Part shown: positions 32,345-48,405 of the stretch, in pieces
Numbering within the stretch: position 1 is the stretch's first letter
Layout: each line of letters starts with the position of its first letter
DNA from: a virus
Virus record (IMG/VR): IMGVR_UViG_3300037246_001990
Location: 1-63,032 of that record
Length of the DNA stretch: 63,032 nt
Reading direction: 5' to 3' (one strand)
The notes under the pieces: generated by a model
Database searches by the model: none
Seen by the model: only the letters and a program-made list of their open reading frames with translations
What the model was told of the DNA's origin: nothing
Made by a program: the position numbers and the translations under genes

Positions 32345-32715
32345 TGAAAATAAAACTTGATTTTGTAACCAATAGTTCATCCTGTTGTTATGTTATATCA
32401 TCACCCAAACCAATGAAAACATCTGATTTTGTTAGTATATCAGGAGGTAGCTTTAATGAATTTCAGTCTCTTTCCACTATAGAAGAGTTAATTAAATACA
32501 CTGATTCTGAACCATGCGACTGGGTAAAGAAAGCTACAGGACCGAGAAGATTTTGGGGATGTCAACCAAGAGAATATGAGAAATATAAAGCTATAATCGA
32601 ATCAGGAAATTCTGTGATAATAGCTCATGTTGAAAGAAATTTTGAGGATGTAGAAGTATTTGATATAGCTTTATCAAAGATGAACTGTGAAGTATTAGAA
32701 AGGGAATATGATTAA
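32344..32715 (+). CDS. TNSS-tag family protein 5
   Basis: Starts MKIKLDFVTNSSSCCYVISS, 123 aa. It has the Val variant of the head and two Cys after the serines. The DCDWVKKATGPRR-like middle resembles the middle of protein 6 (GPLDWASKPGGP), so these two bodies may be related. It overlaps the SbcC-like stop and the next gene (TAATG). Confidence 0.75.
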   Translation: MKIKLDFVTNSSSCCYVISSPKPMKTSDFVSISGGSFNEFQSLSTIEELIKYTDSEPCDWVKKATGPRRFWGCQPREYEKYKAIIESGNSVIIAHVERNFEDVEVFDIALSKMNCEVLEREYD

Positions 32716-33092
32716 TGAAAATAAAACTTGATTTTGTAACAAACAGCTCGTCTTCATGTTTTCTTATGGCAGTTCCAAAACACCTTGAAACGGATTTAGA
32801 AAATTACGTAACCGAACTCGCCAAAGATCCAGATTCAATAAACGAGGGAGTTCAACTATATAAAGTTGCATACACATTAAAAGAGCTTGACACCTTTACA
32901 AATGACGGTCCTCTTGATTGGGCGTCTAAACCAGGAGGACCCCAATTTAATAATTTATCAGAAGAGTCATATAATAGTTCAAAAGAGGCAATTGAAAGTA
33001 GTCATATAATCGTTGATGTATCTGTAGATTATAATGTATGCAAAAAATTTGTGGATTCATGGAAAGGATATATAATAAGGGAAGAGGGATGA
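32715..33092 (+). CDS. TNSS-tag family protein 6
   Basis: Starts MKIKLDFVTNSSSSCFLMAV, 125 aa. The body has a PLDWASKPGGP segment similar to protein 5, suggesting a duplication of the whole gene rather than the head only. It ends in an ATGA overlap with protein 7. Confidence 0.75.
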   Translation: MKIKLDFVTNSSSSCFLMAVPKHLETDLENYVTELAKDPDSINEGVQLYKVAYTLKELDTFTNDGPLDWASKPGGPQFNNLSEESYNSSKEAIESSHIIVDVSVDYNVCKKFVDSWKGYIIREEG

Positions 33093-33748
33093 AAATAAAA
33101 ACAGACTTTGTAACAAATAGTTCAAGTACATGTTATGTATTAACAGCAATTATAACAGCTCATCTTCCGTGTCTTTCAAAAGGATTTGAAATATTAAATA
33201 AATTTTATCCTCATCAAGGTTTTCTATATAAAGATTATGCAAATATAGTGGTAAAAGTAGATCCGGAAGATGCTTATGAAGAAACTAAACCATTGCACAA
33301 TACAAATTTAACTATGATCAATTCAACTAAATACAATGAAGAAGATGATACTGAAAAAGAGATTACTTATTTTCAATTAATGATTGATCTATATAATCCT
33401 TATTGGAATGATATGGAACTTGTGGTCAAAGAATTTTTAGAAAATCTTTTCTTTAAACAATTAAAACAAAAAATACCTGCATCACAATTAATGTATTTTT
33501 CTTTTCCATCTAGCATACATGGAGATGGTTGGGATGGTGGAGATCCAGGAGGTCCAGAACACGATATAGTATATAAACATGATTTATTCAAAGCAAAAAC
33601 AAAGATGGGTATACTAACCATAATGGATTCATCAATCATTCCGGAAGTGAGATCAATAGAACAACCACTCAATTTAAATGAAATTCTGTTAGATAATATT
33701 AATCAACAGGGGTTACGTTTGGAGGAACATAATGATAAGAATAGTTAA
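33089..33748 (+). CDS. TNSS-tag family protein 7 (long)
   Basis: Starts MKIKTDFVTNSSSTCYVLTA, 219 aa, the longest member. ATG 33089 is chosen because the head begins there, with GGAAGAGGG before it. A glycine-rich HGDGWDGGDPGGPEHD stretch lies in the second half. It overlaps the start of the radical SAM gene by 17 bases, so enzyme and presumed substrate are translated together. Confidence 0.75.
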   Translation: MKIKTDFVTNSSSTCYVLTAIITAHLPCLSKGFEILNKFYPHQGFLYKDYANIVVKVDPEDAYEETKPLHNTNLTMINSTKYNEEDDTEKEITYFQLMIDLYNPYWNDMELVVKEFLENLFFKQLKQKIPASQLMYFSFPSSIHGDGWDGGDPGGPEHDIVYKHDLFKAKTKMGILTIMDSSIIPEVRSIEQPLNLNEILLDNINQQGLRLEEHNDKNS

Positions 33749-34763
33749 TTGGTTATTGACAAGAAAATGTAACCTTGATTGTGGTTACTGTGCAATTGTA
33801 AAAGACTATCATGGAAAACCAGATGAATACCCAGATATGAGTGATTATCATCAAAATGAACTGGGTCTTAACGATATAGTCAATTCTCTGACAAGATTTC
33901 ATAAACATAATCCTGATTGCTTTCATATATTTTATGGAGGCGAACCAATGTTAAGAAAAGACATTGCTCAGATTATACAGTATTGTCATACACACTCTAT
34001 TCATTACACAATAATCTCAAACAATACAATAGAAGTTCAACCCTTGGTCAAGAAATTAATCAAGCAAGTTGGAAAGCTTGAAGGATATACAGCTTCGATT
34101 GACCCAATCTTGGTAGAATCAAATCCTAGTTTAACAGACAGACTAAAAAAGACAAAACAGGGATTTGAATTTTTATTAGAAATGAGACAACATTGTAATG
34201 ATGTTGTTGCTGAAGTAACTGTTATGAGAGAAGATCAACATCTTATACATAAGTTAGTTAAACATCTAAGCGATTTTGGAATCAATAGCGATATAACATT
34301 TGTTGATATTGCTAAAACTGAGTATTATGATTTTTCAAATGTTAAATCTAGGTCAACTCTAATTCGAAAAACACCTGATCTAGCATATCAGTTAATGAAT
34401 ATTTTAACTAATGATGATGTAGATATTCATATGAAAAATTATTTGATTCCTGCAATATACAAAATTTTACCTTCAGAGATGGATTGTGAAATTGAAAAAT
34501 CTCTTCATAATGTAACAATTGATGCTGATGGTTCAGTGAGATTGTGCCTCAGAATCCGAGGAGTCAATGCGCCCAATCTTATTAATGTGACAGATCTTGT
34601 TTCTTGTGATGGATATATAAATCCACTTGCTCATAAACTTATAATCAAAGATAAAATGGAGTACTGCAAATTATGTAATCATACTTGTCAACTGATGAGT
34701 AAGATAATAGACGATAAAAATCTAGGTCCAGATGATTTAGTTCACCTAGATCGGAGGAAATAA
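33732..34763 (+). CDS. Radical SAM enzyme with C-terminal cysteine cluster
   Basis: The N-terminus has C13-N-L-D-C17-G-Y-C20, the CxxxCxxC motif for a 4Fe-4S cluster that cleaves S-adenosylmethionine, followed by the FYGGEP motif. Near the end are CLRIRG and CKLCNHTC, a SPASM/twitch-like extra cluster typical of enzymes that modify peptides or proteins. It overlaps the seventh TNSS-tag gene and is the natural candidate to modify that family. QueE is unlikely: QueE is shorter and lacks the C-terminal cysteines. Confidence 0.85.
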   Translation: MIRIVNWLLTRKCNLDCGYCAIVKDYHGKPDEYPDMSDYHQNELGLNDIVNSLTRFHKHNPDCFHIFYGGEPMLRKDIAQIIQYCHTHSIHYTIISNNTIEVQPLVKKLIKQVGKLEGYTASIDPILVESNPSLTDRLKKTKQGFEFLLEMRQHCNDVVAEVTVMREDQHLIHKLVKHLSDFGINSDITFVDIAKTEYYDFSNVKSRSTLIRKTPDLAYQLMNILTNDDVDIHMKNYLIPAIYKILPSEMDCEIEKSLHNVTIDADGSVRLCLRIRGVNAPNLINVTDLVSCDGYINPLAHKLIIKDKMEYCKLCNHTCQLMSKIIDDKNLGPDDLVHLDRRK

Positions 34764-34764
34764 A

Positions 34765-35136
34765 ATGCCTGAAGATGTAAGCACTAATATATTAACCAGT
34801 GCCATTGAATTTTGGCACAAGATCAATACCGAAAAGGAGGTAGTAGTTAAATTCACAAAGCTGGACGGAACAATTAGAATTATGAGATGTACTTTGGATT
34901 TCACAAAAGTTCCTAAGGAAGATCGTCCAAAGAAAGTTGATATTCCAAAAATCTTAAAACTGTTACAAGATAATGGAATAATGCATGTTTATGATCTAGA
35001 CAAAAAAGGTTGGAGATCAGTTCCTTTTCAAAGAGTTGATTATCTAAGAACTAGAGGAAACGTTCAATATAAAGTCCAGCCAATGAAACGAACAGGAGTT
35101 GATGAGAATGTCTATTCTAAGAGATTTAATAAGTAA
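34765..35136 (+). CDS. Small SH3-like phage protein (DUF2693-type)
   Basis: The 123-aa protein has a VKFTKLDGTIRIMRCTL start region and a VYDLDKKGWRSVPFQRV segment. This resembles the small phage family with a DGTxRxMxxTL...WDLExxxWRSF pattern that I know as DUF2693. It is probably a compact beta-barrel; role unknown. GGAGG precedes the ATG. It is the first gene after the radical SAM gene. Confidence 0.55.
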   Translation: MPEDVSTNILTSAIEFWHKINTEKEVVVKFTKLDGTIRIMRCTLDFTKVPKEDRPKKVDIPKILKLLQDNGIMHVYDLDKKGWRSVPFQRVDYLRTRGNVQYKVQPMKRTGVDENVYSKRFNK

Positions 35137-35137
35137 T

Positions 35138-35500
35138 ATGAAAACAGATGACTTAGTTGAACAGATTAGAATACTTTGTGATCAAATTCTTGAACAAGAG
35201 TCTGAAGATATGAAGTATATAGATCAAAGACCCCAAGGAGCAAACATATTTCTTTCCCTTCAGATCCCAGGTTCAACTAAAAAAGATATTGGTTTTCTAG
35301 CACTTGAAAGAGATAATGAGGATTTATGGTTAGCATCATTTTGGTCAATTTCAGAGACACAACTTATGGAAACATTAAATACAGATGGAACAATAAGCTC
35401 GTCTCCAAGAAAGAAAAAAGTACATGAAATAAAAGATCATAGACCGGAAAAAATATTAACCGAGTATGCGAAACTTTTTAAATTTTATCACGGAGAATAA
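35138..35500 (+). CDS. Hypothetical protein at the head of the ubiquitin-like locus
   Basis: No family recognised; 120 aa, with an amphipathic N-terminal helix and a central beta-like part. ATG 35138 directly follows the previous stop; the longer frame from 35099 would overlap that gene by 38 bases without a better ribosome site. It ends one base before the E2-like gene, so it may belong to the conjugation locus. Confidence 0.6.
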   Translation: MKTDDLVEQIRILCDQILEQESEDMKYIDQRPQGANIFLSLQIPGSTKKDIGFLALERDNEDLWLASFWSISETQLMETLNTDGTISSSPRKKKVHEIKDHRPEKILTEYAKLFKFYHGE

Positions 35501-35501
35501 T

Positions 35502-38081
35502 ATGGAACAACTTGAAGAAATTCGAATTAATAGCAAATATACGTCTAGACTGATAGCAGAATATCAAAGTTCAATGGAAAAAGAAAAAGAGTCAAAACCT
35601 ACAATACGTCGAAGTATTATGAGAACGAATCAATACATCGAAAAATTCGCCAGGCAATTCAATTCAGCAGTTAATGATAATTCATTAATTCCCCCTAATT
35701 GTAGGTTTATAAAATCATATCCAAATGATAGAAGCATAGTAATTGTTGAAGAAGCACCTGCTATGAGAAGTATAAGAGTAAAAATGGATATGACTAGAGA
35801 TCGTGAAGCTCTAAGAGGAAAGAATCAATGGAAAGAATTTGGTTATGAAAATTTCTTTGAAGAAAATAAATCGCCATATACATTCATGCTGGCGATCCCA
35901 TATGTAATTCATGTTTTAGAATTTGCTGGAACTGCTTTTTCTAGTGGGTTACTGTATTTTAGACCAAAACCATTGTTAGGAATGTCTGATATTCTTTATA
36001 GACCTCCTTTACTCAATATAAGTAATGGTATGTCAGTATGTTATGGAAATTCAGTTTACGAAGGACCTAAAACAAGTATATCATCAGAGATAGATCATGT
36101 TTTAAGAGTATTTTGGTCTTCTGTTTTTAATCCAGACTATATAGATAACTATTATAGATATTCTGAAGTTGCTGGTCTTTGCGATTACTTCACTTGGCAA
36201 TATTATTCACAAACTAATCCAATGTTTATTTATACTGCTGATTGGATTGCATCGAAGAAAACAATAAACAGAGTTATTGAATATGCGGACGAAAAAAATT
36301 CACATGTGAGTCAAGAATTAGGATATAAGAATTTATCGAAACTATTCAATAAACCACAAGTAAGTTCAAAAACACTACCCATTGGAAAACTAAAAATATT
36401 GAGGAATCTAGTTTATGATGTTTGTAATGGATGGGCTCCTGAACTTGACTTGCCAGTCTACATTGGAGATCCTATAAAATATACCAAGGATCGGATTGCA
36501 TTTGTAGATTGCTTTATTGGAATTGCTGGTCGTAATGACCCTACACATGTTCGTATTAAAGCTGATGATAAACTTATAACATTTAAAATTACACAAAAGG
36601 TGAAAGAATTTTTAGCTAAAAAAATTAAAGAAGTTCGCCATGAATCGTTTATAGAACTTCCGGACAAAACCTTGCTTAAAAGTGGCGATATCATAACCAT
36701 GAAAAATAATTTTGGAGTTGATATCTATAAAAAATTACATTACATCAGAAAAGCAGTTGATGATAAGATTGAAATTAGAATAGGTTCAGAGTATTGGTTT
36801 TTTGATGCCGTAGATTGGTCAAAGATTTCAAAAATTGATGTATCAAAACCTATAGTTGATGGAATTGAAATTGTTAAAGATGTATATTATAAATACTTTA
36901 TTTCAGCTTATTATCCACCCGCACCAATATCAAATGCCTTTAGGGACGTAAAATATTATGAATTATCAACTGGAAATAGCAATAATCTCGTTGTTAAATT
37001 ACGTACAAACGACGGTGAGTCTTATGACTTTTCTTTAAATAAGCGTGTAGATAGAACCAAAAAATTATACGATATTTCTAAAATGGAAGATGTTCCAGAG
37101 GTATTTTTCATAGGCAGAAGTATAATATCTTATACCGATGAACGAAGAAATCCAATAAGCATCAAAAGAGATAAAGAATTTGGGTTGATTGCATCTTCTA
37201 GAGATATTAGAATTTCAAAAACATCATTCCATGATATATGTAAACATTTTCTTAATAAAGAAAAAACCAGTTTTCACGCTGAAAGTAATAATCTTATTAT
37301 TGACTTCTCAATTGATGATAAAGTTATCGTTTCAAATTGGGAAGACCCTCTCAGTATGCTTTCCATAAAAACAATCAAAGGGTTTATCTTAAATAATGAT
37401 GCCAGAACAATCAATTTCTTACTTGAAGATAAACATGGAAACGCTTCATCTGTTTTATATGTACATGGAGACGATTGTATTATAAATGTAGGAAAGATTC
37501 GTAAAGTTACAAATGTATTAAATGATGTTATGATAGGTACAAAAATAATTGCTAAAGAATCTGGAATATCATGCTTCCCGAAAAAAGATGTTAATATTAT
37601 AGTTGCCTTTATTATCGATACAGAAGGTGAACCATTAGTGTTATGTTCAAATGGTTGCACTCTGTGGTTTAGCGATTTAATGGAAAAGTTTCAATTAATT
37701 AAAATAAAATCACCAAAATGGAAAAAGTTGACTCATGCATCTCTAGATCCTTCAAAGATCAAACTTCAAACCGGTGATGTTGTAAATTCAGTAGGAAGAT
37801 ATTCTAGCAATCGTGGTTTCTTAGTAACCAAAAATAGTGGTAGTGGTGGTTTAAAATTTGCTAGACTTGATTACTATCATGATTATGATGAATATGTTGA
37901 AGCAGGTCCAATGTTTATAAATAAGTTAATTCTTGATTGTATTCCAAATCCAAGAATGACAACACCAAAACAAAAACTAAAAGGATTCGTTTCGGGATTT
38001 CCAACTTTTCATGGAGGTGTTTCCTTTACCGAATCAAATTATTCCCACTATAAATTTATAGATGAAACCCGGAGGTTTTAA
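35502..38081 (+). CDS. E2-like protein (PRTRC-B / prokaryotic E2 family D type), long
   Basis: The 859-aa protein has near residues 140-205 a run resembling PRTRC system protein B. Its elements are RPKPLLG, RPPLLNISNG, then VCYGN with C180 as candidate active cysteine, then VFWSSVFNPD. In E2 enzymes the equivalent cysteine carries the ubiquitin-like protein. The remaining 600 residues are beta-rich with no recognised domain and might bind substrates. ATG 35502 is preferred to 35466 because CGGAG lies ahead and it avoids overlap. JAB and ThiF genes follow immediately, as I recall for PRTRC loci. The E2 call rests on a short pattern. Confidence 0.5.
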   Translation: MEQLEEIRINSKYTSRLIAEYQSSMEKEKESKPTIRRSIMRTNQYIEKFARQFNSAVNDNSLIPPNCRFIKSYPNDRSIVIVEEAPAMRSIRVKMDMTRDREALRGKNQWKEFGYENFFEENKSPYTFMLAIPYVIHVLEFAGTAFSSGLLYFRPKPLLGMSDILYRPPLLNISNGMSVCYGNSVYEGPKTSISSEIDHVLRVFWSSVFNPDYIDNYYRYSEVAGLCDYFTWQYYSQTNPMFIYTADWIASKKTINRVIEYADEKNSHVSQELGYKNLSKLFNKPQVSSKTLPIGKLKILRNLVYDVCNGWAPELDLPVYIGDPIKYTKDRIAFVDCFIGIAGRNDPTHVRIKADDKLITFKITQKVKEFLAKKIKEVRHESFIELPDKTLLKSGDIITMKNNFGVDIYKKLHYIRKAVDDKIEIRIGSEYWFFDAVDWSKISKIDVSKPIVDGIEIVKDVYYKYFISAYYPPAPISNAFRDVKYYELSTGNSNNLVVKLRTNDGESYDFSLNKRVDRTKKLYDISKMEDVPEVFFIGRSIISYTDERRNPISIKRDKEFGLIASSRDIRISKTSFHDICKHFLNKEKTSFHAESNNLIIDFSIDDKVIVSNWEDPLSMLSIKTIKGFILNNDARTINFLLEDKHGNASSVLYVHGDDCIINVGKIRKVTNVLNDVMIGTKIIAKESGISCFPKKDVNIIVAFIIDTEGEPLVLCSNGCTLWFSDLMEKFQLIKIKSPKWKKLTHASLDPSKIKLQTGDVVNSVGRYSSNRGFLVTKNSGSGGLKFARLDYYHDYDEYVEAGPMFINKLILDCIPNPRMTTPKQKLKGFVSGFPTFHGGVSFTESNYSHYKFIDETRRF

Positions 38082-39761
38082 ATGTTTTCTGTATTTGTGA
38101 ATGACGGAACTAAAGAAATGCCAGACGACGATATTCTTTATATCGTTTGTAAAGAAGGAACTTATCTGAAAAAGAAACTTGGTATTATGGAAAGTATCAC
38201 CCCAGTCAAAAATATTTCGATTCTTAAAACAGTTGAAATGATGGCAACGATGCATATCAAACCCATACCAGGAACTCTATTCGCCCCAGTTATGGACTTC
38301 TTCTCCAAAGTATATGAGGAGCATAGGGGCGAGGCCATTGTTCTTCTCTTTTATAATGAAGAAAAGAGAGTCTATAAAATTGTTCCTCCCTCTCAAGAAG
38401 TAAGTGCGTCAGGGGTAGACTACATTAGAGCAATGACAATTGATGGTTATATAATGGTTGGTGATATTCACAGTCATGCAAACTTCTCCGCTTTTCATTC
38501 GGGCACAGATGATGCAGATGAAAAATCATTTGATGGTTTGCATATAACAATCGGAAATAATGGAGACGATGAAGTAAGTATCTCCGCTTCAATTGTATCA
38601 AATGGTCAAAGATTTATATGTAGCCCAGAAGATTATATCAATGGAGTTTTACGAACAGTTGATATAGATGAAGTAGTTGAAAAATCCTATGCTCAAACTT
38701 ATATATGGAATACAGACCTTAGAAAGTTAGTCCTTAAACCATCAACAAAAACCTATAAGGTTAAAAGGTTTGACAGAAGATATATATCAACTGTTTCTAA
38801 AAGATATCAAAAATGTCCAGATGAATGGTTGACACTCGTAACAAAGAAAAAATGGGCAGCATATACAACAGGAAGTTTTGGGTATGGAAGTGTTTATAAT
38901 AATTGGAATACTAGTAGATTTGATCCAGATGCATGGAAAAATCATAAAAATCAACAAGGTAAGATCCAACCCCCAGCGCTTCTTCCCGCAACAACCAAAC
39001 CAATTACATTCCCACCACATGCTCAAACAACTGGACCTATGGAAGAAATTATAGAAAAAGATTTCAATCCATGCGAAAAGTGTCCATTCGTTCAACATAA
39101 AGTTGATTGGCTTATGGAACAGATAGCTGCAGATGATGGATTAGATGAAATGAGCAAATATTTGGATAATGATGGAAATCCAATTGATTGGTATCAATGC
39201 GATAAGTGTTCACAAGTATTTTCCACGAGTGATGAATTTGCAGTATGTCCTAGCTGTAATGTGGATGATCATTTAATATTATTAGACGGACAAGATCTAG
39301 ATTTTAAAAATATGGAAGCCATCAATACAGGTATAGATATAGAAGGTATAGAGTGGTATCGATGTGAAGAATGTTCCGAAATATTCGATACAACTTCTTT
39401 GAGTCCTAAATGTCCAGTATGTAAAAAGGATGATTCTTTAGTATTGCTCCATCTTAATGGAAACTCAGCTCCGTATATACCTGAAGAAGTCAAAGAGTCC
39501 ATATCCACCTACCAATACAAGTGTAAAGAATGTGCGACACAAACAAGCATATTAAATCACGGGCAATGTCCATTTTGTGGTGGGGATGTTATGGATTCAA
39601 TTGATGTTGAAGCTTTAAAAGCAGCAGCAGCAGAAGATGAAACGATGGAAAGTATTCCACTTCCTGTACCCGGTGATAATAAAATTCCTTTGGGAAACAG
39701 GAAAAAACAAAAGCGGAAGCCTGGTCTTTTGGCCCGCATACTCATGAAGGGTAAGTCATGA
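38082..39761 (+). CDS. JAB/JAMM metallopeptidase fused to zinc ribbons
   Basis: The JAMM signature H130-S-H132-x7-S140-x2-D143 is complete, so this is an active-type deubiquitinase-like peptidase. Residues 330-545 hold at least three zinc-ribbon modules (CEKCPF, CDKCSQ...CPSC, CEECSE...CPVC, CKECAT...CPFC). The C-terminus is basic. In ubiquitin-like loci such enzymes trim the Ubl precursor or remove it from targets. It abuts the E2-like gene and overlaps the E1-like gene (ATGA). The zinc ribbons are unusual for this family and may bind nucleic acid or a partner such as RNA polymerase. Confidence 0.85.
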   Translation: MFSVFVNDGTKEMPDDDILYIVCKEGTYLKKKLGIMESITPVKNISILKTVEMMATMHIKPIPGTLFAPVMDFFSKVYEEHRGEAIVLLFYNEEKRVYKIVPPSQEVSASGVDYIRAMTIDGYIMVGDIHSHANFSAFHSGTDDADEKSFDGLHITIGNNGDDEVSISASIVSNGQRFICSPEDYINGVLRTVDIDEVVEKSYAQTYIWNTDLRKLVLKPSTKTYKVKRFDRRYISTVSKRYQKCPDEWLTLVTKKKWAAYTTGSFGYGSVYNNWNTSRFDPDAWKNHKNQQGKIQPPALLPATTKPITFPPHAQTTGPMEEIIEKDFNPCEKCPFVQHKVDWLMEQIAADDGLDEMSKYLDNDGNPIDWYQCDKCSQVFSTSDEFAVCPSCNVDDHLILLDGQDLDFKNMEAINTGIDIEGIEWYRCEECSEIFDTTSLSPKCPVCKKDDSLVLLHLNGNSAPYIPEEVKESISTYQYKCKECATQTSILNHGQCPFCGGDVMDSIDVEALKAAAAEDETMESIPLPVPGDNKIPLGNRKKQKRKPGLLARILMKGKS

Positions 39762-40432
39762 ATATTAAAATTATAGGATTAGGCGGAGTAGGATCAATCC
39801 TAATTGAAAGACTATGTAGATTTTTAAACTATGGAGCAGAATTGTCTGCAGATATTACATTAGTTGATGGAGATTCTTATGAAGAGAAAAATTATGAACG
39901 TCAGGAGTTTTCAAGTTTTGGAAACAAAGCAGAGGTGAAAGCAACTGATTTACAAATTCAATATCCAAGACTCTCTATCGATGTATATCCTGCCTTCGTC
40001 AATGAAACGACACTATCAGATGTCATAAAAGAAGGCGATGTTGTATTTCTTTGTGTAGATAATCATAAAACCAGAATGATCGTAAACAATTACTGTAAAC
40101 AATTTAAAAATATTACCTTGATTTCTGGAGGGAATGAATTAACGGATGGAAACGTACAAACATATATTCGGAGAGAAAGTAAAGATTTAACTCCGGATCT
40201 GTGTTCATATCATCCTGAAATTGCAAATCCTGACGATAAGTTACCTGATGAAATGTCCTGTGAGGAATTATCTCATTCTGAACCCCAATTGTATTTTACA
40301 AATCTCGGGGTTGCCACGATAATGTGTTGGAGTTTCTATAATGCGATTGTCAAATCTAATTTGGAAGCTTCCGAGGTGTACTTTGATATGACAAGCATGA
40401 ATACTCGGGCACAAAATCGTTTAGTGAAGTGA
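39758..40432 (+). CDS. E1/ThiF-like adenylyltransferase
   Basis: The N-terminal Rossmann motif GLGGVGS (residues 7-13) and LVDGD...KNYERQ match ThiF/E1 enzymes that adenylate the C-terminus of a ubiquitin-like protein. The later DVVFLCVDNHKTR is the usual second nucleotide-side segment. It is 224 aa, compact, with cysteines in LCSYHPE and MSCEE that might act as thiol carrier. It overlaps the JAB gene and precedes the Ubl-like gene by 34 bases. Confidence 0.85.
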   Translation: MNIKIIGLGGVGSILIERLCRFLNYGAELSADITLVDGDSYEEKNYERQEFSSFGNKAEVKATDLQIQYPRLSIDVYPAFVNETTLSDVIKEGDVVFLCVDNHKTRMIVNNYCKQFKNITLISGGNELTDGNVQTYIRRESKDLTPDLCSYHPEIANPDDKLPDEMSCEELSHSEPQLYFTNLGVATIMCWSFYNAIVKSNLEASEVYFDMTSMNTRAQNRLVK

Positions 40433-40466
40433 ATTTCGAAATTCAATTTGAAAGGAATAGAAACAA

Positions 40467-40928
40467 ATGGCACGTTACAAGAGAGAAACATTAGAGGCAA
40501 AATCGGTAAAAGAACTTCGTCAACTGGTCGTCAAACTGGGTATCACCGGAAAGACCAAACTCCCTAAAGCCAGTATCATCGATGCGATCATGGGAACCGG
40601 CGGTGGAGGTGGAGGAGCATCTGTTACATCGGAAGCTCCCAAACCTATCCAAGGAATTGAGGGTAGCTTTCAAAGCTCAATGACCAAACCCGAAGCAGGT
40701 TTCGGGTTCAAAACCTCAACCACAGTGCAGGTTTCCTGTGGTGCTTCATCCGGCCGTTTTCCAGTCGTTGGTCGCACACTCGCCGAAGTTGGGGAATTCC
40801 TGCGGGAAGTCCTGAACGTCAGCAAACTCTCAACCGGTCTGGTTAACGGAAAAGAGCAAGATGGATCCTATGTCCTGGCAGACAAGGATGTTGTTGAATT
40901 CCTGAAACCAGCAGGAAAAAAGGGATAA
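40467..40928 (+). CDS. Ubiquitin-like beta-grasp protein with SAP/Rho-N-like N-terminus
   Basis: The C-terminal 75 residues look like a beta-grasp Ubl of the PRTRC-C/ThiS kind: a TVQVSCG strand, a VGRTLAEVGEFLREV helix, then DGSYVLADKDVVEFLKPAGKKG, which mirrors the DGDEVEFL...G tail of ThiS/MoaD. The chain ends in a single Gly. The first 45 residues (KSVKELRQLVVKLGI...KASIIDAI) resemble a SAP/Rho-N helical domain, joined by a six-glycine linker. The gene is visibly more GC-rich than its neighbours, as if highly expressed or recently acquired. AAAGGAA precedes the ATG. Confidence 0.65.
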   Translation: MARYKRETLEAKSVKELRQLVVKLGITGKTKLPKASIIDAIMGTGGGGGGASVTSEAPKPIQGIEGSFQSSMTKPEAGFGFKTSTTVQVSCGASSGRFPVVGRTLAEVGEFLREVLNVSKLSTGLVNGKEQDGSYVLADKDVVEFLKPAGKKG

Positions 40929-40945
40929 TCCCTTAAATTAGGAAT

Positions 40946-40972
40946 TTGGGGGATCCATTTTGGGTCCCCCAA
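40946..40972 (+). terminator. Hairpin after the Ubl gene
   Basis: TTGGGGGA (40946-40953) pairs with TCCCCCAA (40965-40972). No T-run follows, so it is either an attenuator or an mRNA-stabilising hairpin that favours the upstream Ubl message. It also argues against the ATG at 40946 as a start of the next gene. Confidence 0.55.
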
Positions 40973-40996
40973 TACCAAAGAGAGGGGGAAATAATA

Positions 40997-41881
40997 TTGA
41001 CACTTAGAAAGATTGTAGTAATCGGTGTAGGATCTTTTGGTGGTTTTTTATGTAAACATCTTTCTGAGCTCGAATCTGTTAAACAACTTTATATTATAGA
41101 TGATGATATTATTGAAGGAAAAAATATAAGAAATTCAGTCTATACATTTTCACAAGTTGGAGAATATAAAGTTGATGCTTTAACCGAGATTGTTCAAGAT
41201 GATATCTCAGTATTAGGTTTTAGATCTAAATATGAAGAAGGAAAAACAAAACTCCCAAAAGCTGATTTAGTTATTGATTGTAGAGACGTAGTGTGCGACA
41301 GAGCAACAGATATAGATATAAGGTTTTATATATCTGGAAGAGTATTAATAATTGACTCTAGAAAAAATATAAAATGCCATCGTGAATATAAAGGGAAGTA
41401 TAGTATAAATTTAACCAAAAGTGAAATAAGGAAGGCAGCATTTTTCGCTGCGCAGATAATTAATAGTAATCAACTGACTGATCTGAGAAAAAATAAACCA
41501 ATACAAACAGTTGATCTTGATCTCATACCAGTATTTTTAAACAAATCAATAAAAGAAACTCTTGAAAATAAATCTGATTTGTTGTATGAAGTATTTGATC
41601 ACACTGATCGTATTCATGGATTAGAAGAACAGATTCAACCAATTATGCAAATAAACAAAACTGAAGACATCAAAGTCTTTATAGCTGAAAAGGAAGTACA
41701 AATCTTATCTAATCATTGTATCATTCCTAAAGGTTCATTACATACATCTACTGATCTAGTCGAATCTTTAACAAACTTAGTAAAACAACGAGGCGATTTT
41801 ATGAATTTTATAGTAGTCATGAAGGAGAATCCTGATGGATCTAGACACATTGAACTTCTTGAAGAAACCGGAGGAAGTTAA
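40997..41881 (+). CDS. Second E1/ThiF-like protein
   Basis: A Rossmann motif GVGSFGG in the first 20 residues is followed by YIIDDDIIEGKNIRNS (the D...N..R pattern of E1 enzymes) and KADLVIDCRD. The 294-aa protein has no obvious transfer cysteine in a conserved context, so it may be a pseudo-E1 partner or an activator of a different Ubl. The TTG at 40997 is chosen because AGAGGGGG lies seven bases ahead, while ATG 40946 lies in a hairpin. It overlaps the next gene by 47 bases. Confidence 0.75.
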   Translation: MTLRKIVVIGVGSFGGFLCKHLSELESVKQLYIIDDDIIEGKNIRNSVYTFSQVGEYKVDALTEIVQDDISVLGFRSKYEEGKTKLPKADLVIDCRDVVCDRATDIDIRFYISGRVLIIDSRKNIKCHREYKGKYSINLTKSEIRKAAFFAAQIINSNQLTDLRKNKPIQTVDLDLIPVFLNKSIKETLENKSDLLYEVFDHTDRIHGLEEQIQPIMQINKTEDIKVFIAEKEVQILSNHCIIPKGSLHTSTDLVESLTNLVKQRGDFMNFIVVMKENPDGSRHIELLEETGGS

Positions 41882-42281
41882 GGTAATTAAAAGCAATGTA
41901 TATCCGTTCAGAAAAATTCACATATATATAGGCAAAATAATACCAACAAGAGCAATACAAAATAGATGTGTTTTTGAGTTAACACACGTTCATGAAAGTA
42001 TGATTCTAGAAGGATTTGTTATAACCACATACTTGAAAGACGATCAAATAATATCAATTAATCTTTTTGGAGAACATCCAAACTGCAATGTAGATACAAA
42101 TACATATTGCTGGCCAGACCATAAAAAAGGATTGGTGTTAGACCAGGATACTTTATCAATGATGATAACAAACTTCAAAACTTATTATTTAGATGATTGT
42201 TACTTTACTCCAGGTCCTGCTTTGATTCATTATAAAAAATTAAACTCAATGAGCATACACCTCAATAAAGGAGAAGTCTGA
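41835..42281 (+). CDS. Candidate E2-like (UBC-fold) protein with HPN motif
   Basis: Residues H81-P-N83 are followed by C92-W after a short strand, then a helix (LDQDTLSMMITNFKTYYL) and a proline (TPGP). In UBC-fold E2 enzymes an HPN motif precedes the catalytic cysteine by about eight residues in the same way. At 148 aa it is the size of a minimal E2. AAGGAGAA lies directly ahead of the ATG inside the E1-like gene, supporting this start despite the overlap. It is the second E2 candidate of the locus; pattern only. Confidence 0.45.
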   Translation: MDLDTLNFLKKPEEVKVIKSNVYPFRKIHIYIGKIIPTRAIQNRCVFELTHVHESMILEGFVITTYLKDDQIISINLFGEHPNCNVDTNTYCWPDHKKGLVLDQDTLSMMITNFKTYYLDDCYFTPGPALIHYKKLNSMSIHLNKGEV

Positions 42282-42502
42282 TGCCACCACAAAAACCAGA
42301 AGGAGCATCTCTGTTAGAAGATTATATAAATCATTTGATAGATCAAAAATTACAAGAACATGGTTCTTCTATTAACAAAGAGGATGCAGAAGAAATTGTA
42401 AAGTTTTTAATGCCCGAATTTGAAAAACTGATTTCAAAAATTGTTCTCAAACATCTACGAGCAATTGCAACATACACACTAAAAGAACTAAAAGAGGAAT
42501 AA
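42281..42502 (+). CDS. Small helical hypothetical protein, 73 aa
   Basis: All-helical and charged; no family recognised. Its ATG overlaps the E2-like stop (GATG), AAGGAGAAG is ahead, and it ends four bases before polymerase beta' set 2. It may belong to the ubiquitin-like locus or be a polymerase accessory. Confidence 0.7.
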   Translation: MPPQKPEGASLLEDYINHLIDQKLQEHGSSINKEDAEEIVKFLMPEFEKLISKIVLKHLRAIATYTLKELKEE

Positions 42503-42505
42503 ACC

Positions 42506-45181
42506 ATGCCAAAAATATTGGACTATGAAAAATTTTGTGAAGACCTAGAGGAAGTGACCTCTCTAAAAACTATTGGTAAAAGAAAATTTCATCCAGAAGG
42601 TTTATTCTCTGAACAAATCTTCGGTCCAGTAAAGAACTACACTTGTCAATGTGGCACATACTATGGAGTTTCAAGATCTGGAGGACAATGCGATATATGT
42701 GAAGTTGATATTACAAATAGCGATGTAAGAAGAACTAAATTTGCTAAAATAACTTTACCAATGAAAGTTGTCAATCCTCTGTTTTATGATTTATTAGTAG
42801 ATCTTGGAGGGAAGAGCTTCAAATCTGCCTTAGATGACTTAATGAAACAAGAGAAAAGTGTTCTTTATATGGATGAGGGTGAACATGTTGTTATAGTTAA
42901 TCCTGAGATATTATCGCCAGAAATTGAAACTTGGGAAAAAACAGATGCAATTGAGAAGTTAGTAACAGATGTTGCAACTACTATGGCAGAAGATGGTATT
43001 GCGGAATGGAAACTAATAAAGGATAATATCAATAATTTATTCCTTAGTAAGATAATTGTCCTACCACCAGACCTCAGACCAACATCAAAGAGTACAGGCA
43101 ACAGACAACTCATGGATAAAATCAATAGGTATTATGTCCAAATTTTAACTAAGAAAGAAATTATGAGAGAGACAACTATTGATATTAGATCAGATAAAAA
43201 TATGTATTACACATACTTCAAACAACTTCAAGGAGTTGTCGATGAATTATACGATCAGATATTAGCAAAGATGGCAAAGAAAGAAGGTTTAATAAGAGGA
43301 AATATTTTAGGGAAAAGAATTGATTTCTCTGGAAGAGCAGTAATATCTCCAGATCCAACTTTAAATCTTAACGAATGTGTGTTGCCATATTTAATGATTC
43401 TTGAAATGTTCAAATTGCCTATTGCAAGGAGAATAATTCAGCTTGGTAAATTCAAACTATTGAATAAAGCAATTGATTTTGTAGACAGATGCATAGCTAC
43501 TAATTCTCCAGTTTTATTTAAGGTTTGTGAGGAGATTGTCAAAGATGAGGTATGTATATTAAATCGTCAACCATCTCTTCATAGACTTGGTATGCTTGGA
43601 TTTAATATCAAAATTTCTTTAGATCAAGTTATTAAGATTCATCCTTTGGTTTGTCATCCATTTAATGCAGACTTTGATGGAGATCAAATGGCAGTTTATA
43701 TTCCTGTTACTGAGGAAGCAAAACAAGAAGTCATTGATAAAATGTTTGTAACTAAAAATTTAAATAGTCCGGCAAATGAAACCTTGACAACAATTCCAAA
43801 TCAAGATATAGTATTGGGAATATATTTCTTAACATCTGATAAATTTTCTAATGTGGATGGACATAAATTATTCAATGATTGTTTGCCCGATGATTATGTT
43901 AATATAACAGGTGTTGTTGATCAGAAAAAATTACTTGAGATCTTAAATCATATTAAAGATACATATTCATATGAACAGACTCAAAAAGTTTTAGATGATG
44001 TAAAGAGAATTGGATTTAAATATTCAACTCTTTATGGATGCACCTTATCATTAGAAGACTTCAACGATCAGCCATTCAGAGAATCTAGAGATGCTATATA
44101 TGCAAAACCAACAGTCAGAGAACAATTGGTTGGAGTTTCTAGTGATGAAATTACTAATGAGTTAAGAGAAAAATTTGCTTACTCATATATGATCGACTCT
44201 GGAGCAAGAGGAAGCTGGGATCAAGTCAAACAGTTAATTCTTACAAGAGGATTTGTAGCTAATTTCGATGGAGAAATATTACCATTACCAATCAAACACA
44301 ATCTAGTAGAAGGTCTCAGTCAAGAGGAATTTTTCTATTCAACATTTGGTTGTAGAAAGGGACTTCTTGATATTGCACTGAACACTGGAACCTCGGGATA
44401 TTTGTCAAGGAAATTAATCTTTACTTGTGCAAACCTTCAAATAGACTTGGAACTTGTAGATTGTGGAACCACTGATACACTTACAGTCAATGTTAAAGAT
44501 AAAAGAAAAGCAGCAATGCTTGTAAATAGATACTGTCTTTCGGAAGATGGCAAATCACTTTACAAAATCACAAAAGAAAATTGTAAAGATATTATTGGAA
44601 AACAAATTGAAATCAGAAGTCCAATATTATGTAAATCGCCAAAGATTTGTCAAACTTGTTATGGGGATCTTCATAAGTCTATTAACAGTAGATTCGTTGG
44701 AATTATAGCTGCACAAACCCTTGGAGAAAGAGCAACCCAATTAGTTCTAAGAACTTTCCATACATCAGGTTCAGCAATTATCAAAGGAGCTGAAGATAAT
44801 GTTCAAGATTCAATGAAGCAAAAAGACATTATTGGTGATCTGGCAACAGTTGCTTCACTTTTACATAAGTTCAAAAATAAAGATTATATAGATATAGTTG
44901 ATCAATTATTTCAAGCTTATGATGCAGATATTTATCACGTTCATTATGAATGTGTAGTTGCTCAGTTAATGTGGAAAGATTTTAAGAAATGGAGACTATT
45001 AAAAAATAGAGAAAAAGTTAAACCAAATTATTATAGTGTACAATCAGTTCCAAATCAAGAGTCATGGATTTTGGCTATGGCATTTTCAAATCCAAAGAGA
45101 TCAATCCTTCATGGCATCTTATATGAAGGAAGGTATTCTGGAGTTATGGATAAGATCTTAAAAGGCGAAAGAATAACATGA
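42506..45181 (+). CDS. Multisubunit RNA polymerase beta' subunit (set 2, unsplit)
   Basis: The 891-aa RpoC-like protein has the N-terminal zinc ribbon (C47, C49, C62, C65), missing in set 1. It also has GKRIDFSGRAV, RQPSLHRLGM, the NADFDGDQ metal motif (D389, D391, D393), trigger-loop sequence GLSQEEFFYSTFGCRKG, and the C-terminal cysteine group C709, C715, C718. The last region SWILAMAFSNPKR is the beta' C-terminal helix, so the subunit is intact. Sequence differs widely from set 1; the two are ancient paralogues, not a recent duplication. It lies directly after the ubiquitin-like locus. Confidence 0.95.
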   Translation: MPKILDYEKFCEDLEEVTSLKTIGKRKFHPEGLFSEQIFGPVKNYTCQCGTYYGVSRSGGQCDICEVDITNSDVRRTKFAKITLPMKVVNPLFYDLLVDLGGKSFKSALDDLMKQEKSVLYMDEGEHVVIVNPEILSPEIETWEKTDAIEKLVTDVATTMAEDGIAEWKLIKDNINNLFLSKIIVLPPDLRPTSKSTGNRQLMDKINRYYVQILTKKEIMRETTIDIRSDKNMYYTYFKQLQGVVDELYDQILAKMAKKEGLIRGNILGKRIDFSGRAVISPDPTLNLNECVLPYLMILEMFKLPIARRIIQLGKFKLLNKAIDFVDRCIATNSPVLFKVCEEIVKDEVCILNRQPSLHRLGMLGFNIKISLDQVIKIHPLVCHPFNADFDGDQMAVYIPVTEEAKQEVIDKMFVTKNLNSPANETLTTIPNQDIVLGIYFLTSDKFSNVDGHKLFNDCLPDDYVNITGVVDQKKLLEILNHIKDTYSYEQTQKVLDDVKRIGFKYSTLYGCTLSLEDFNDQPFRESRDAIYAKPTVREQLVGVSSDEITNELREKFAYSYMIDSGARGSWDQVKQLILTRGFVANFDGEILPLPIKHNLVEGLSQEEFFYSTFGCRKGLLDIALNTGTSGYLSRKLIFTCANLQIDLELVDCGTTDTLTVNVKDKRKAAMLVNRYCLSEDGKSLYKITKENCKDIIGKQIEIRSPILCKSPKICQTCYGDLHKSINSRFVGIIAAQTLGERATQLVLRTFHTSGSAIIKGAEDNVQDSMKQKDIIGDLATVASLLHKFKNKDYIDIVDQLFQAYDADIYHVHYECVVAQLMWKDFKKWRLLKNREKVKPNYYSVQSVPNQESWILAMAFSNPKRSILHGILYEGRYSGVMDKILKGERIT

Positions 45182-45188
45182 GAAAATA

Positions 45189-45437
45189 ATGAGAGATCCA
45201 AAAAGAATACCCGAAATACTCGATGAACTAAAGGGGATCTGGGGAGCATTTCCAGATCTCCGTTTAGGGCAACTGATAATAAATGTAATAGACTCACAAA
45301 TGTCAGGAAATTCAATTGAAGTAGACCAATCATTCTATTACATAGAAGATGAAAAATTAATACAACATTTCAGAAACTATCTTTCGGAGGTCAAATATAT
45401 TGAACCTAATAAATCCAATGTTCAAAATAAAAAATGA
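45189..45437 (+). CDS. Small hypothetical protein between beta' and beta (set 2)
   Basis: The 82-aa protein starts MRDPKRIPEILDELKGIW and has PDLRLGQLIINV and FYYIEDEKL. This resembles small uncharacterised bacterial proteins with a W..PDLRLxQLI pattern and an ED-x-L ending (DUF1040-like, from memory). No strong ribosome site is visible. It overlaps the beta start by 38 bases. Function unknown. Confidence 0.65.
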   Translation: MRDPKRIPEILDELKGIWGAFPDLRLGQLIINVIDSQMSGNSIEVDQSFYYIEDEKLIQHFRNYLSEVKYIEPNKSNVQNKK

Positions 45438-48405
45438 AGATAGAAATATTTTCACTTTTAGACAACAAGACTATGACAAGATTTTACCAGTAGTCTCCGC
45501 AATAGTTAACCCAGTCAAAGAACTGGACTTTCAAATACTTGAGCTAGACATAAAGGAGTCACGATTCACATCTGGTGAATTATCAAAAACCATTAAACAA
45601 ACCCTCGTTATAAAACTACAAAAAGGAAACTCTATAATTGATTTGAGTATCTTTATACCTAAAATTATTGATGATAACTATATCATAATTAACGGTAGAA
45701 AAAAGATTCCTCTTTTTCAATTATTTGATATCCCAATTGTAACAAGGGGTCAAAGTATTAAACTAAGAACTAATGTAGCAACCTTGATGATCTTTAAGGA
45801 TAAAGAACCTCCTTATGTTAAGGTAAGTTTCTTAGGTAAAAAACTTCATTTAGCATTGATGATGTTTGGTTTTTATGGACCAGAGGAAATCATCAAAAGA
45901 TTTGATTTGAATAATCTTAAAGTTAATGAAGGAAGCGATGTTCTATATGAAAATCTGCTTCAAGATTTATTATTCTTTCATGAAGAATCAAAAGGATATA
46001 CACAAGATGAATTTATCCATGAAATTGGAAGAATATATTCAAGATATAATGCAAAATCAAAAGGCGAAGATGTTATGTATGCTCTTGATCTTATCCCCAA
46101 AGTCGATGTAATGACTTCCCAGTTTCTTCAAACCGGTTCTATTATTGAAGAACTGATCAAGGCAATACAAACTGAATACATCGATGATACTCTTTTCACA
46201 AATAAGAGAATACGATGTTTTGAATATATGATCTATTCAAAAGTTTCAAAAATTATCTTCGACTTATGTTACTCAAATAGAACTGCAAGAGCGCCAAAGT
46301 TCAATATCAATTCAACTCAAGTATTAACTGAGTGTAATGTATCTGATATTGTTCAGTTCGATTTTTCAATTAATCCAATTGAAGAACTTACAAAGCTATC
46401 AAGGATAAGTCTTCTAGGACCAGGCGGTTTTAAAAGAGAAAATATTCCAAAACACTTGAGAGATATATGTCCTTCAATGTTTGGAAGAATTTGTCCAGTC
46501 GATACTCCAGATAGAGATAACTGTGGTGTGCTTCAAAATATAACTCCAAATGTAAAGGTCGATGAAAAACTTAAATTTATTGCAGAGATTCCTGATAATC
46601 AACCAATATCAATACCAGTATCAATGGTTCCATTCTTAGAACATGATGATCAAACAAGATTACAAATGGCATCCTCACAGATGAGACAATCAATCATGTT
46701 AAAACAATTTGATGAACCAATGATTAAATCTGGGTGTGAAGGGTTGTACACAGAATTTACTCAATTCATAAAGAAAGCAAAAAGAAACGGAGAAGTTGTT
46801 CATATCGATCAAAAATATATCATAGTTATATATGATAATAGTGAAGTTGATATATTCGATATATCGTTTCGAAAAATCTATGTTGAACACATGGACTTTA
46901 TGAATATTTATGTTAAACCGGGCGATAAATTTAAATCTGGAGATATATTAGCAGAAAGTAATTACTGTAAGAATGGAGAAATAACATTTGGTAAAAATTT
47001 ATTGACTGGTGTTATGATCTATTATGGAAACAATTACGAGGATGGTATAGTTATATCAGATAGATTAGTAAAAGAAGATGTATTTACATCTGTTCATTAT
47101 AAGGAACTATCATTTACAATACCACCCCATAAAGTTCTGTTGACTCTAGATGAAAACAAATACAAACCTCTTCCAGATGAATTTGAAACTATTCAACCTG
47201 AAGATCCGTATGCTATCATGAAAAGTTTATCATCTGATGATCTATATTCGGTGTTTGGAGAAAATTTAGTTCTCGAAGCAGAAAAGAGATATTTAATTCC
47301 TGAAGTAAAAATATATGCAAATTCATGGAATGAAGATATTCCCGAGTATACAAGATGGGTTACTAAAACAATTCAAGAGCAAGAGGAAAAAGAAAATTAC
47401 TTACAAAGAATCTTAAAAGAAAAATTACCAAAGGAAGATGCTAAAAGATTCATACGAGAAAAAGGATTAGACATATTCTCTTTTACAGGAAAGTATAAAA
47501 ATAAAAGAGAAAAGATAAATGGTATTTATGTTGAAATGACTGGCATTCATTTTAGAAGAATTCAAGTTGGAGATAAAATTGCAAACCGTCATGGAAACAA
47601 AGGTATAATTTCAAGGATTATACCTCATGAAAAAATGCCACAAATTGAAGATGGAAGACATTTAGATATATGTATAAATCCACTGGGTATCATTTCAAGA
47701 ATGAATCTTGGTCAACTATATGAACTTCGATTGTCAATGATTTTGGAAGATTTGAAAAATATTTTATTCCTTATATTATCTGAAGGAAAAGATCAAAGAG
47801 ATATTAAAAGATTCTTGTTAGAATTCATTAAAATTATTGATAAGACAGAAGATAATTGGTATTACAATCAGTTCAAAGAACAGATTCCCAAAGTCATTGA
47901 TGAAGAATTTATAAACAACTTAACCATAATTCAACCGCCGTTTGAATCATGTAAAATAGAAGACATTCAAGAGGCGATTAAATATACAGCAACTAAATTT
48001 AAACAAGAAGTTTATGATCCATTATCTAAAACAAAATTTCTAAATAAAATTGCTGTAGGGTATATTTATTTCTTCCGTATGGTTCATATTGCAGCAGAAA
48101 AGTTAGCAGCAAGAGGTATTGGTAGCTATGCAAAACGAACACTTCAACCTCTTGGTGGAAGAAAAAATAAGGGCGGTCAAAGATGCGGAGAGATGGAAAC
48201 TGCATGTATTATTGCTCACGACGCTCCTTGTAATCTATTTGAATTTCTTACTACAAAGTCAGATTGTATTGACTTGAAAAATAAATATATACGAAATTTC
48301 ATAGATGCAGATTTAGTTGATGAATCGAAGGAGTTAGATACAAGGCCAGAATCAGTTAAGCTCTTAAATGCATACCTCACAGTGTTAGGAGTTGACCACA
48401 AATGA
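45400..48405 (+). CDS. Multisubunit RNA polymerase beta subunit (set 2)
   Basis: The 1001-aa RpoB-like chain has FGRICPVDTPDRDNCG (the TPEG-region equivalent), NYEDGIVISDRL, GDKIANRHGNKGI, NPLGIISRMNLGQ, and QPLGGRKNKGGQRCGEME. It is 360 residues shorter than set 1 beta. The TTG start has GGAGG (45386-45390) at nine bases. It forms a core with the beta' at 42506. It overlaps the next gene by four bases. Confidence 0.95.
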   Translation: MNLINPMFKIKNEDRNIFTFRQQDYDKILPVVSAIVNPVKELDFQILELDIKESRFTSGELSKTIKQTLVIKLQKGNSIIDLSIFIPKIIDDNYIIINGRKKIPLFQLFDIPIVTRGQSIKLRTNVATLMIFKDKEPPYVKVSFLGKKLHLALMMFGFYGPEEIIKRFDLNNLKVNEGSDVLYENLLQDLLFFHEESKGYTQDEFIHEIGRIYSRYNAKSKGEDVMYALDLIPKVDVMTSQFLQTGSIIEELIKAIQTEYIDDTLFTNKRIRCFEYMIYSKVSKIIFDLCYSNRTARAPKFNINSTQVLTECNVSDIVQFDFSINPIEELTKLSRISLLGPGGFKRENIPKHLRDICPSMFGRICPVDTPDRDNCGVLQNITPNVKVDEKLKFIAEIPDNQPISIPVSMVPFLEHDDQTRLQMASSQMRQSIMLKQFDEPMIKSGCEGLYTEFTQFIKKAKRNGEVVHIDQKYIIVIYDNSEVDIFDISFRKIYVEHMDFMNIYVKPGDKFKSGDILAESNYCKNGEITFGKNLLTGVMIYYGNNYEDGIVISDRLVKEDVFTSVHYKELSFTIPPHKVLLTLDENKYKPLPDEFETIQPEDPYAIMKSLSSDDLYSVFGENLVLEAEKRYLIPEVKIYANSWNEDIPEYTRWVTKTIQEQEEKENYLQRILKEKLPKEDAKRFIREKGLDIFSFTGKYKNKREKINGIYVEMTGIHFRRIQVGDKIANRHGNKGIISRIIPHEKMPQIEDGRHLDICINPLGIISRMNLGQLYELRLSMILEDLKNILFLILSEGKDQRDIKRFLLEFIKIIDKTEDNWYYNQFKEQIPKVIDEEFINNLTIIQPPFESCKIEDIQEAIKYTATKFKQEVYDPLSKTKFLNKIAVGYIYFFRMVHIAAEKLAARGIGSYAKRTLQPLGGRKNKGGQRCGEMETACIIAHDAPCNLFEFLTTKSDCIDLKNKYIRNFIDADLVDESKELDTRPESVKLLNAYLTVLGVDHK

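Follow-up and report, generated by a model that had tools for sequence, protein, structure and literature searches.

Current work treats the conjugation of ubiquitin-like proteins (Ubl) in prokaryotes chiefly as a means by which bacteria fight phages. In the genomes described here the predicted machinery is a fixed part of the phage. An operon type with activating enzyme (E1), conjugating enzyme (E2), JAB peptidase and Ubl is known as type 6d (Iyer et al. 2006; PMC1779556), which we equate, in our own reading, with the PRTRC system of plasmids. Seven plasmid loci of this system were read as reference. The order ParB-E-C-F-B-A-ThiF was found in six of the seven, with one or two genes unnamed in some of them; for locus L139 no ParB was present in the stretch shown. 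The antiphage systems Bil and Bub likewise consist of Ubl, E1, E2 and a JAB-type deubiquitinase (DUB), with BilA as tandem Ubl and BilD as E1 with two adenylation domains and a Cys domain (PMC11354881). Phage-encoded Ubl and JAB proteins are known from lambda as TAPI (Ubl) and TAPK (JAB-NlpC). These are tail genes with an NlpC fusion and without described E1 or E2 (PMC1779556), unlike the locus presented here. This locus is a block of six genes in the IMG/VR virus record IMGVR_UViG_3300037246_001990, of which positions 1 to 63,032 (63,032 bases, the whole stretch analysed) are called the window. We consider the block likely to be a pathway of Ubl conjugation and deconjugation that is core to this phage lineage.

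Components and conserved residues

Six intact open reading frames (ORFs) lie in a row on the + strand at 35.5-42.3 kb, as a sequence-only reading of the window had described. They are tightly packed, with adjacency at 38081/38082 and overlaps at 39758-39761 and 41835-41881. Lengths are given in amino acids (aa).

35502..38081, + strand: E2-like protein (E2-D), whose first ~280 aa are of Prok-E2_D / PRTRC B type; ORF open from ATG 35466
36039..36041, + strand: predicted catalytic Cys of this E2, in PxxN-x7-CxG; invariant in 61 sequences
38082..39761, + strand: JAB/JAMM metallopeptidase with C-terminal zinc ribbons; Pfam Prok-JAB 8.4e-7, over cut-off
38469..38510, + strand: JAMM motif H130-x-H132-x7-S140-x2-D143; exact in 72 sequences by regular expression
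39758..40432, + strand: E1a, ThiF-family adenylating enzyme; Pfam ThiF 5.8e-24, over cut-off
40259..40261, + strand: predicted catalytic Cys168 of E1a, SC motif; invariant in 74 sequences
40467..40928, + strand: Ubl with Rho_N/SAP-like N-terminal domain, Gly-rich linker and C-terminal ThiS/TGS-like beta-grasp, ending EFLKPAGKKG
40920..40925, + strand: Lys152-Gly153 at the C-terminus of the Ubl; identical in all 73 aligned members
40946..41881, + strand: E1b, second E1-like protein; Pfam ThiF 7.3e-10, over cut-off
41835..42281, + strand: orf148, small protein resembling E2 (UBC-like), with HPN...C
42075..42110, + strand: HPN (H81-N83) to Cys92 of orf148; aligned with the E2 active-site motif

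Residue conservation was computed over 61-74 sequences, depending on the protein. The catalytic residues of the JAB peptidase, E1a, E2 and orf148 were near-invariant. For the JAB peptidase E84, H130, H132, S140 and D143 were invariant in 73 sequences, and the HxHx7SxxD motif is thus as intact as claimed before. Its zinc ribbons vary among relatives, at least two CxxC beyond residue 230 being found in 28 of 73. In E1a, a single-domain protein of 224 aa, G7/9/10/12, D37, R48, K57, D101, R106 and C168 were invariant in 74 sequences; the comparison residues of MoeB are Gly41, Arg73, Lys86 and Asp130 (PMC12355090). The E2 matched Pfam Prok-E2_D with 3.6e-6, over cut-off, and both N184 and C192 were invariant in the 61 sequences. 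The Cys is C192 counted from ATG 35466 and C180, the number given by the sequence-only reading, from ATG 35502. The relatives favour the latter start because their alignment begins there.

Beyond its N-terminal domain the E2 carries an extension of ~590 aa, which was not observed in bacterial relatives. Relatives from candidate phyla align to the N-terminal part of the E2 profile only. A look for internal repeats in the extension gave only trivial overlaps of windows. In contig L154 (4425-7280) a separate E2 of 233 aa is followed by an ORF of 717 aa, whereas other phages have a single protein of ~870 aa. A reading of the 717 aa protein as a detached E2 extension was rejected, as no profile match was found.

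The Ubl of the window (153 aa) terminates at Gly153, which bears out the terminal Gly read from the sequence. Pfam gave only weak Rho_N/TGS for this protein. Among 70 members Rho_N was detected in 55, TGS in 50 and ThiS in 43; TGS and ThiS, located in the C-terminal ~70 residues, were weak but consistent. The AlphaFold (AF2) model had a predicted local distance difference test (pLDDT) of 77.6, and in Foldseek comparisons with Ubl-fold structures TGS, MoaD, TtuB and SAMP1 were nearest, with E >=0.4. A Ubl without beta-grasp fold, which would speak against the locus as read earlier, is not what these matches point to.

Not all relatives stop at the same position. Of 73 Ubl C-termini 47 stop at Gly and 17 at KG-Cys, and the remainder mostly have 1-8 further residues; the Ubl of L070 continues for ~65 residues past KG. 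Since a short removable tail adjoins a JAB peptidase gene, this suggests that the Ubl precursors are processed by that peptidase. BilA is trimmed by its JAB-type DUB, which exposes the C-terminal Gly (PMC11354881).

E1b consists of an N-terminal Rossmann half and a C-terminal domain of ~100 aa with a conserved small-residue tail, and its translation may in fact begin ~17 codons further on. It retains G27/29/32, D52 and K75. A NxxR-type motif was found in 3 of 66 E1b proteins, compared with NxxRQ-type in 74 of 74 E1a. Judged by these residues, E1b is a degenerate E1 domain. Its relatives end with Ala in 64 of 66 cases; the TGGS of the window is an exception.

Occurrence in viral genomes

Downstream of the block follow orf73 and the genes of a phage RNA polymerase (RNAP):

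42281..42502, + strand: orf73, small protein separating the block from rpoC; detected in more than half of the loci
42506..45181, + strand: phage RNAP beta-prime-like subunit (rpoC), conserved neighbour; Pfam RNA_pol_Rpb1 domains
45400..48405, + strand: phage RNAP beta-like subunit (rpoB); PHROGs

Scans with E1a, with the Ubl alignment and with the E1a alignment resulted in 73 distinct viral loci on contigs of up to 459 kb. Most of them have the order E2-JAB-E1a-Ubl-E1b-orf148-rpoC-rpoB. Because 73 distinct viral loci carry these components, most in identical order, their co-occurrence is not chance. The distant loci L112, L115 and L122 have E2-JAB-E1a-Ubl only, and for L100, L124 and L125 the E1b match was the same short protein as E1a, at the same position.

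A separate scan was started from an rpoC alignment. Of the 80 best relatives, 73 have one or more block components upstream of rpoC, and 58 have all six. Among the seven others, five contigs end within 2.3 kb; L248 and L268 have no block component within 10 kb upstream of rpoC. From the same metagenome as L248 derives L100, which has the four-gene set and no rpoC match nearby. With components upstream of rpoC in nearly all relatives, the block thus has the character of a core element in this lineage of phages.

Contigs L142 and L154 from archaeal metagenome-assembled genomes (MAGs) carry the phage block and RNAP genes. They were not taken as archaeal systems, since the tree places them within the phages and phage rpoC/rpoB are present on them; probably they are phage contigs that were binned with archaea, or they hint at archaeal hosts. 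MoeB matches of Acinetobacter 'phage' MD-2021a, surrounded by metabolic genes of that record, were also set aside.

Comparison with PRTRC and other systems

Six phage families were compared with six PRTRC families by profile-profile comparison (hhalign). The JAB peptidase paired with PRTRC A (99%, 7e-18), E1a over its full length with PRTRC ThiF (98.6%, 9e-16) and E2 with PRTRC B (78%, P=1.8e-5). Apart from a match of ThiF to the N-terminal half of E1b, strong matches were confined to the expected pairs. With NCBIfam models PRTRC_A (TIGR03735) matched the JAB peptidase with 4e-14 and 52 bits (cut-off 101.8), PRTRC_ThiF (TIGR03736) matched E1a with 9e-12 and 44.8 bits (cut-off 144.75), and PRTRC_B (TIGR03737) matched E2 with 0.0065, under cut-off. 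PRTRC_C was absent from the 25 families listed for 70 Ubl members. Hence, of the PRTRC families named by the sequence-only reading for a profile check, A, B and ThiF pair specifically; C matches the Ubl only weakly, over its last 12 residues. ParB, PRTRC E and PRTRC F were not recognised among those block proteins that were scanned with Pfam and NCBIfam, and no block protein matched PRTRC E or F in hhalign.

The phage block and the PRTRC plasmids both have proteins of JAB (A), E2-D (B) and ThiF type, in the order B-A-ThiF. This order, given for plasmids in the sequence-only reading, was seen in all seven plasmid loci. They also share the SC motif of E1, matched in seven PRTRC ThiF proteins, the KG near the C-terminus of the Ubl and the PxxN-x7-CxG motif, which occurs in most PRTRC B proteins compared. 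In contrast to the plasmids, the phage Ubl lies downstream of E1 and has an additional Rho_N/SAP domain, E2 is enlarged to 871 aa, and ParB, E and F were not seen in the block. Furthermore, the phage block adds E1b and an HPN-type E2 and adjoins the phage RNAP.

In a quick tree of E1 proteins, with long branches flagged, phage E1a falls outside PRTRC and groups with the E1s of four-gene operons from candidate phyla. By these comparisons the locus is PRTRC-like and belongs to a broader E2-D type as a separate branch; it is not filed as PRTRC itself: the NCBIfam cut-offs are not reached, E1a lies outside PRTRC in the tree, ParB, E and F were not seen in the block, and the second pair of E1 and E2 comes in addition. 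The resemblance claimed by the sequence-only reading holds in this sense, backed by the profile pairing, the B-A-ThiF order and the near-invariant catalytic residues. As in type 6d, E1, JAB peptidase, a Ubl ending in Gly and a Cys-containing E2-D occur in one neighbourhood of the window.

The closest E1 relatives in the tree are the E2-JAB-E1-Ubl operons of NC10, Planctomycetota, Acidobacteriota and other MAGs. Their gene set is similar and most have a GxKG-type Ubl tail. Unlike in the phages, E2 is small (220-290 aa in most), JAB and Ubl are mostly small, orf148 has no match, and E1b matches are mostly the E1a protein itself. In NC10 bacterial MAGs the operon (L151:4669-9382 and L152:4607-8947) appears chromosomal from neighbours read by eye, and an AAA-like gene of ~580 aa was seen, also by eye, upstream of it.

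Salmonella phage Arash, Vibrio phage D69 and Bacillus phage KLEB27-3 have E2-D-like, JAB and ThiF genes in the same order as the window. In each of them the assignment as E2 is weak, and ThiF of D69 is a profile match of 2e-6. Compared with the window their E2 is small, no Ubl was recognised with the profile of the window family, and their E1s group with plasmids/PRTRC. These sets have scant or no annotation; in GenBank the E2-D-like and ThiF genes of Arash (L029, gp246-gp248) are labelled 'structural protein'. A tblastn search of named phages with E2 and the Ubl core gave no match. As to the antiphage systems, the window has a single 153 aa Ubl and a single-domain 224 aa E1a instead of the tandem Ubl and two-domain E1 of Bil/Bub. 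The E2-E1 fusion of Cap2/Cap3 from the cyclic oligonucleotide-based antiphage signalling system (CBASS), which lies beside a CD-NTase, was not found either: E1 and E2 are separate ORFs, and PADLOC matches span the E1 part only.

The second E1-like and E2-like proteins

In 64 sequences of orf148 H81 and C92 were invariant, and P82 (98%) and N83 (95%) nearly so. The AlphaFold model from 62 sequences (pLDDT 86.9, predicted template modelling score 0.79) has a four-strand meander, then HPN...C, then a helix, an order of elements as in E2s. E2/UEV domains were often the top Foldseek matches, but weak (best E 0.47, template modelling score <=~0.43). Searched against 177,635 PDB sequences, the profile had one match at E <=5, an E2 with HPN-x8-C aligned (E 0.2). 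Pfam gave nothing for the window protein; among relatives UQ_con was tied as most frequent (2 of 62). No significant match was found in the viral structure library. We term orf148 E2-like, with a putative UBC fold.

Four distant phages (L267, L272, L275 and L276) have rpoC about 40% identical. Upstream of it lie a short E1b (175-200 aa), a separate protein of 85-95 aa and, with HPN/HPH...C, a protein that resembles E2; in L272 the latter follows two intervening ORFs. The small proteins resemble E1b tails in their C-terminal small residues and Ala. With the E1b C-terminal profile one of them was the best match among 2393 small ORFs (E 0.03), and the others were near background. No sequence homology was found between the E1b C-terminal domain and the Ubl. 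The split gene suggests that this domain is an independent module, either a second Ubl or a UFD-like recruiter of E2. As no homology to the Ubl was found, the arguments for a second Ubl are the split gene, the tail and a strand-helix pattern judged by eye.

Neighbouring genes

Terminase, topoisomerase II and an SbcC-like protein are also encoded in the window. Its RNAP beta-prime/beta-like genes form two sets (2463-9596 and 42506-48405), as in phiKZ-like phages. The block had been placed between RNA polymerase genes; it does lie between the two sets, directly upstream of the second beta-prime gene, and does not interrupt an RNAP operon. Radical SAM, WYL_2 and orf133 genes (33732-35500) precede the block in most loci and may be functionally linked to it. 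Just 5' of the radical SAM gene (33732-34763), small proteins sharing an N-terminal motif like MKIKLDFVTNSSS are encoded at 32344-33748, and relatives such as L268 have four tandem copies with such a start. Possibly these are substrates of the radical SAM enzyme. Counts of promoters and terminators showed no excess over chance.

Discussion

By sequence, the locus combines an E1 with ATP-site residues and candidate Cys, an E2-D Cys, a Ubl with Lys-Gly and a peptidase with JAMM residues, kept together over large divergence. In the proposed pathway the JAB peptidase would trim those forms of the Ubl whose Gly is covered by a tail. E1a would adenylate Gly153 and then hold the Ubl as thioester on Cys168; from there it would move to the E2-D Cys and on to lysines of target proteins, from which the JAB peptidase would also remove it. 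E1b and orf148 would form a second arm of activation and transfer. They could be partner subunits of the first cascade, with E1b as a pseudo-E1 whose C-terminal domain recruits E2, or a separate, second cascade that includes a Ubl-like module of its own. Since the Ubl has a Rho_N/SAP-like domain, probably binding nucleic acid, and the block is locked to phage RNAP genes, the most likely targets would be proteins of phage or host transcription, a guess that is rather doubtful in itself.

Several points weigh against this pathway. The match between Ubl and PRTRC C is confined to the last 12 residues (hhalign P=0.006), and the Ubl of the window already ends in Gly, so that processing is not needed here. 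The fold matches of Ubl and orf148 are each weak (Foldseek E >=0.4). With two E1-like and two E2-like proteins the wiring is ambiguous, and the link to RNAP could be explained by operon position instead of target. Conjugation, targets and function are predictions from the sequence.

The similarity of the Ubl to ThiS, TGS and MoaD would also fit a sulfur carrier, activated by E1a and thiocarboxylated, whose sulfur would go to tRNA, a cofactor or the like; the JAB peptidase would trim its tail and the nearby radical SAM enzyme would be the user. Sulfur clusters of ThiS/MoaD, JAB and E1 exist (PMC1779556), and a radical SAM gene is located upstream in most loci. Nevertheless, we regard this as very unlikely in view of two E2-like proteins whose Cys is near-invariant. 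Pfam and NCBIfam scans of the block revealed no sulfurtransferase or rhodanese as partner, and the candidate-phylum operons have E2 but no radical SAM match, except for the phage-like L142 and L154. Assembly of virion or tail after the model of TAPI/TAPK, with processing of the Ubl by the JAB peptidase, is highly improbable. It could draw on the known phage Ubl and JAB pairs in tail assembly clusters (PMC1779556) and on the 'structural protein' annotation in Arash, but E1 and E2 are present, no NlpC/P60 domain was found in the block proteins, and those neighbouring genes that could be identified are SbcC-like, WYL_2, radical SAM and RNAP genes.

Two further explanations are directed at the host. 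The system could disable Ubl-type defences (Bil/Bub, CBASS Cap2/3), for instance by competing for conjugates or cleaving them. A JAMM peptidase and a Ubl mimic would be capable of such a role, for which JAMM proteases of Borg elements were proposed (PMC12660748), and the E1-like proteins match PADLOC E1-E2 models. Cleavage alone, however, needs no full E1-E2-Ubl set. Counter-defence genes are typically accessory and mobile, whereas this block is near-universal and fixed beside RNAP, which makes counter-defence quite unlikely. Likewise unlikely is a tag put on host proteins at an early stage of infection so that they are degraded or inactivated. The AAA-like gene ahead of the NC10 operon would suit it, but no dedicated unfoldase or protease was identified beside the phage block, and the position next to RNAP does not single out early expression.

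For the conjugation pathway itself, a more far-reaching version assumes two interlocked Ubl cascades as core genes, jointly regulating the multisubunit RNAPs of the phage. The PRTRC-like arm would comprise E2-D, JAB, E1a and the Ubl with Rho_N/SAP head, the second arm E1b, a fused or separate Ubl-like module ending in small residues plus Ala, and the HPN-type E2. We consider this version doubtful.

Machinery of this kind occurs in plasmids and bacteria, but the literature searched contains no description of it as core to a phage genome. No comparable phage conjugation system was found in open-access full texts, the scope excluding preprints and subscription papers, and a survey of 224 jumbo-phage genomes does not mention JAB, ThiF or E1-like proteins (PMC7824862). 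The locus provides a phage setting for PRTRC-type genes, for which the literature consulted establishes no role, and adds a phage-encoded E2-like protein of HPN type. As a small set of E1, E2, Ubl and DUB it offers a handle on how ubiquitin-like systems work and arose. Machinery fixed in phage genomes would make Ubl tagging a phage function and, if the two cascades do regulate its RNAPs, the transcription of a prokaryotic virus would be controlled by ubiquitin-like tagging.

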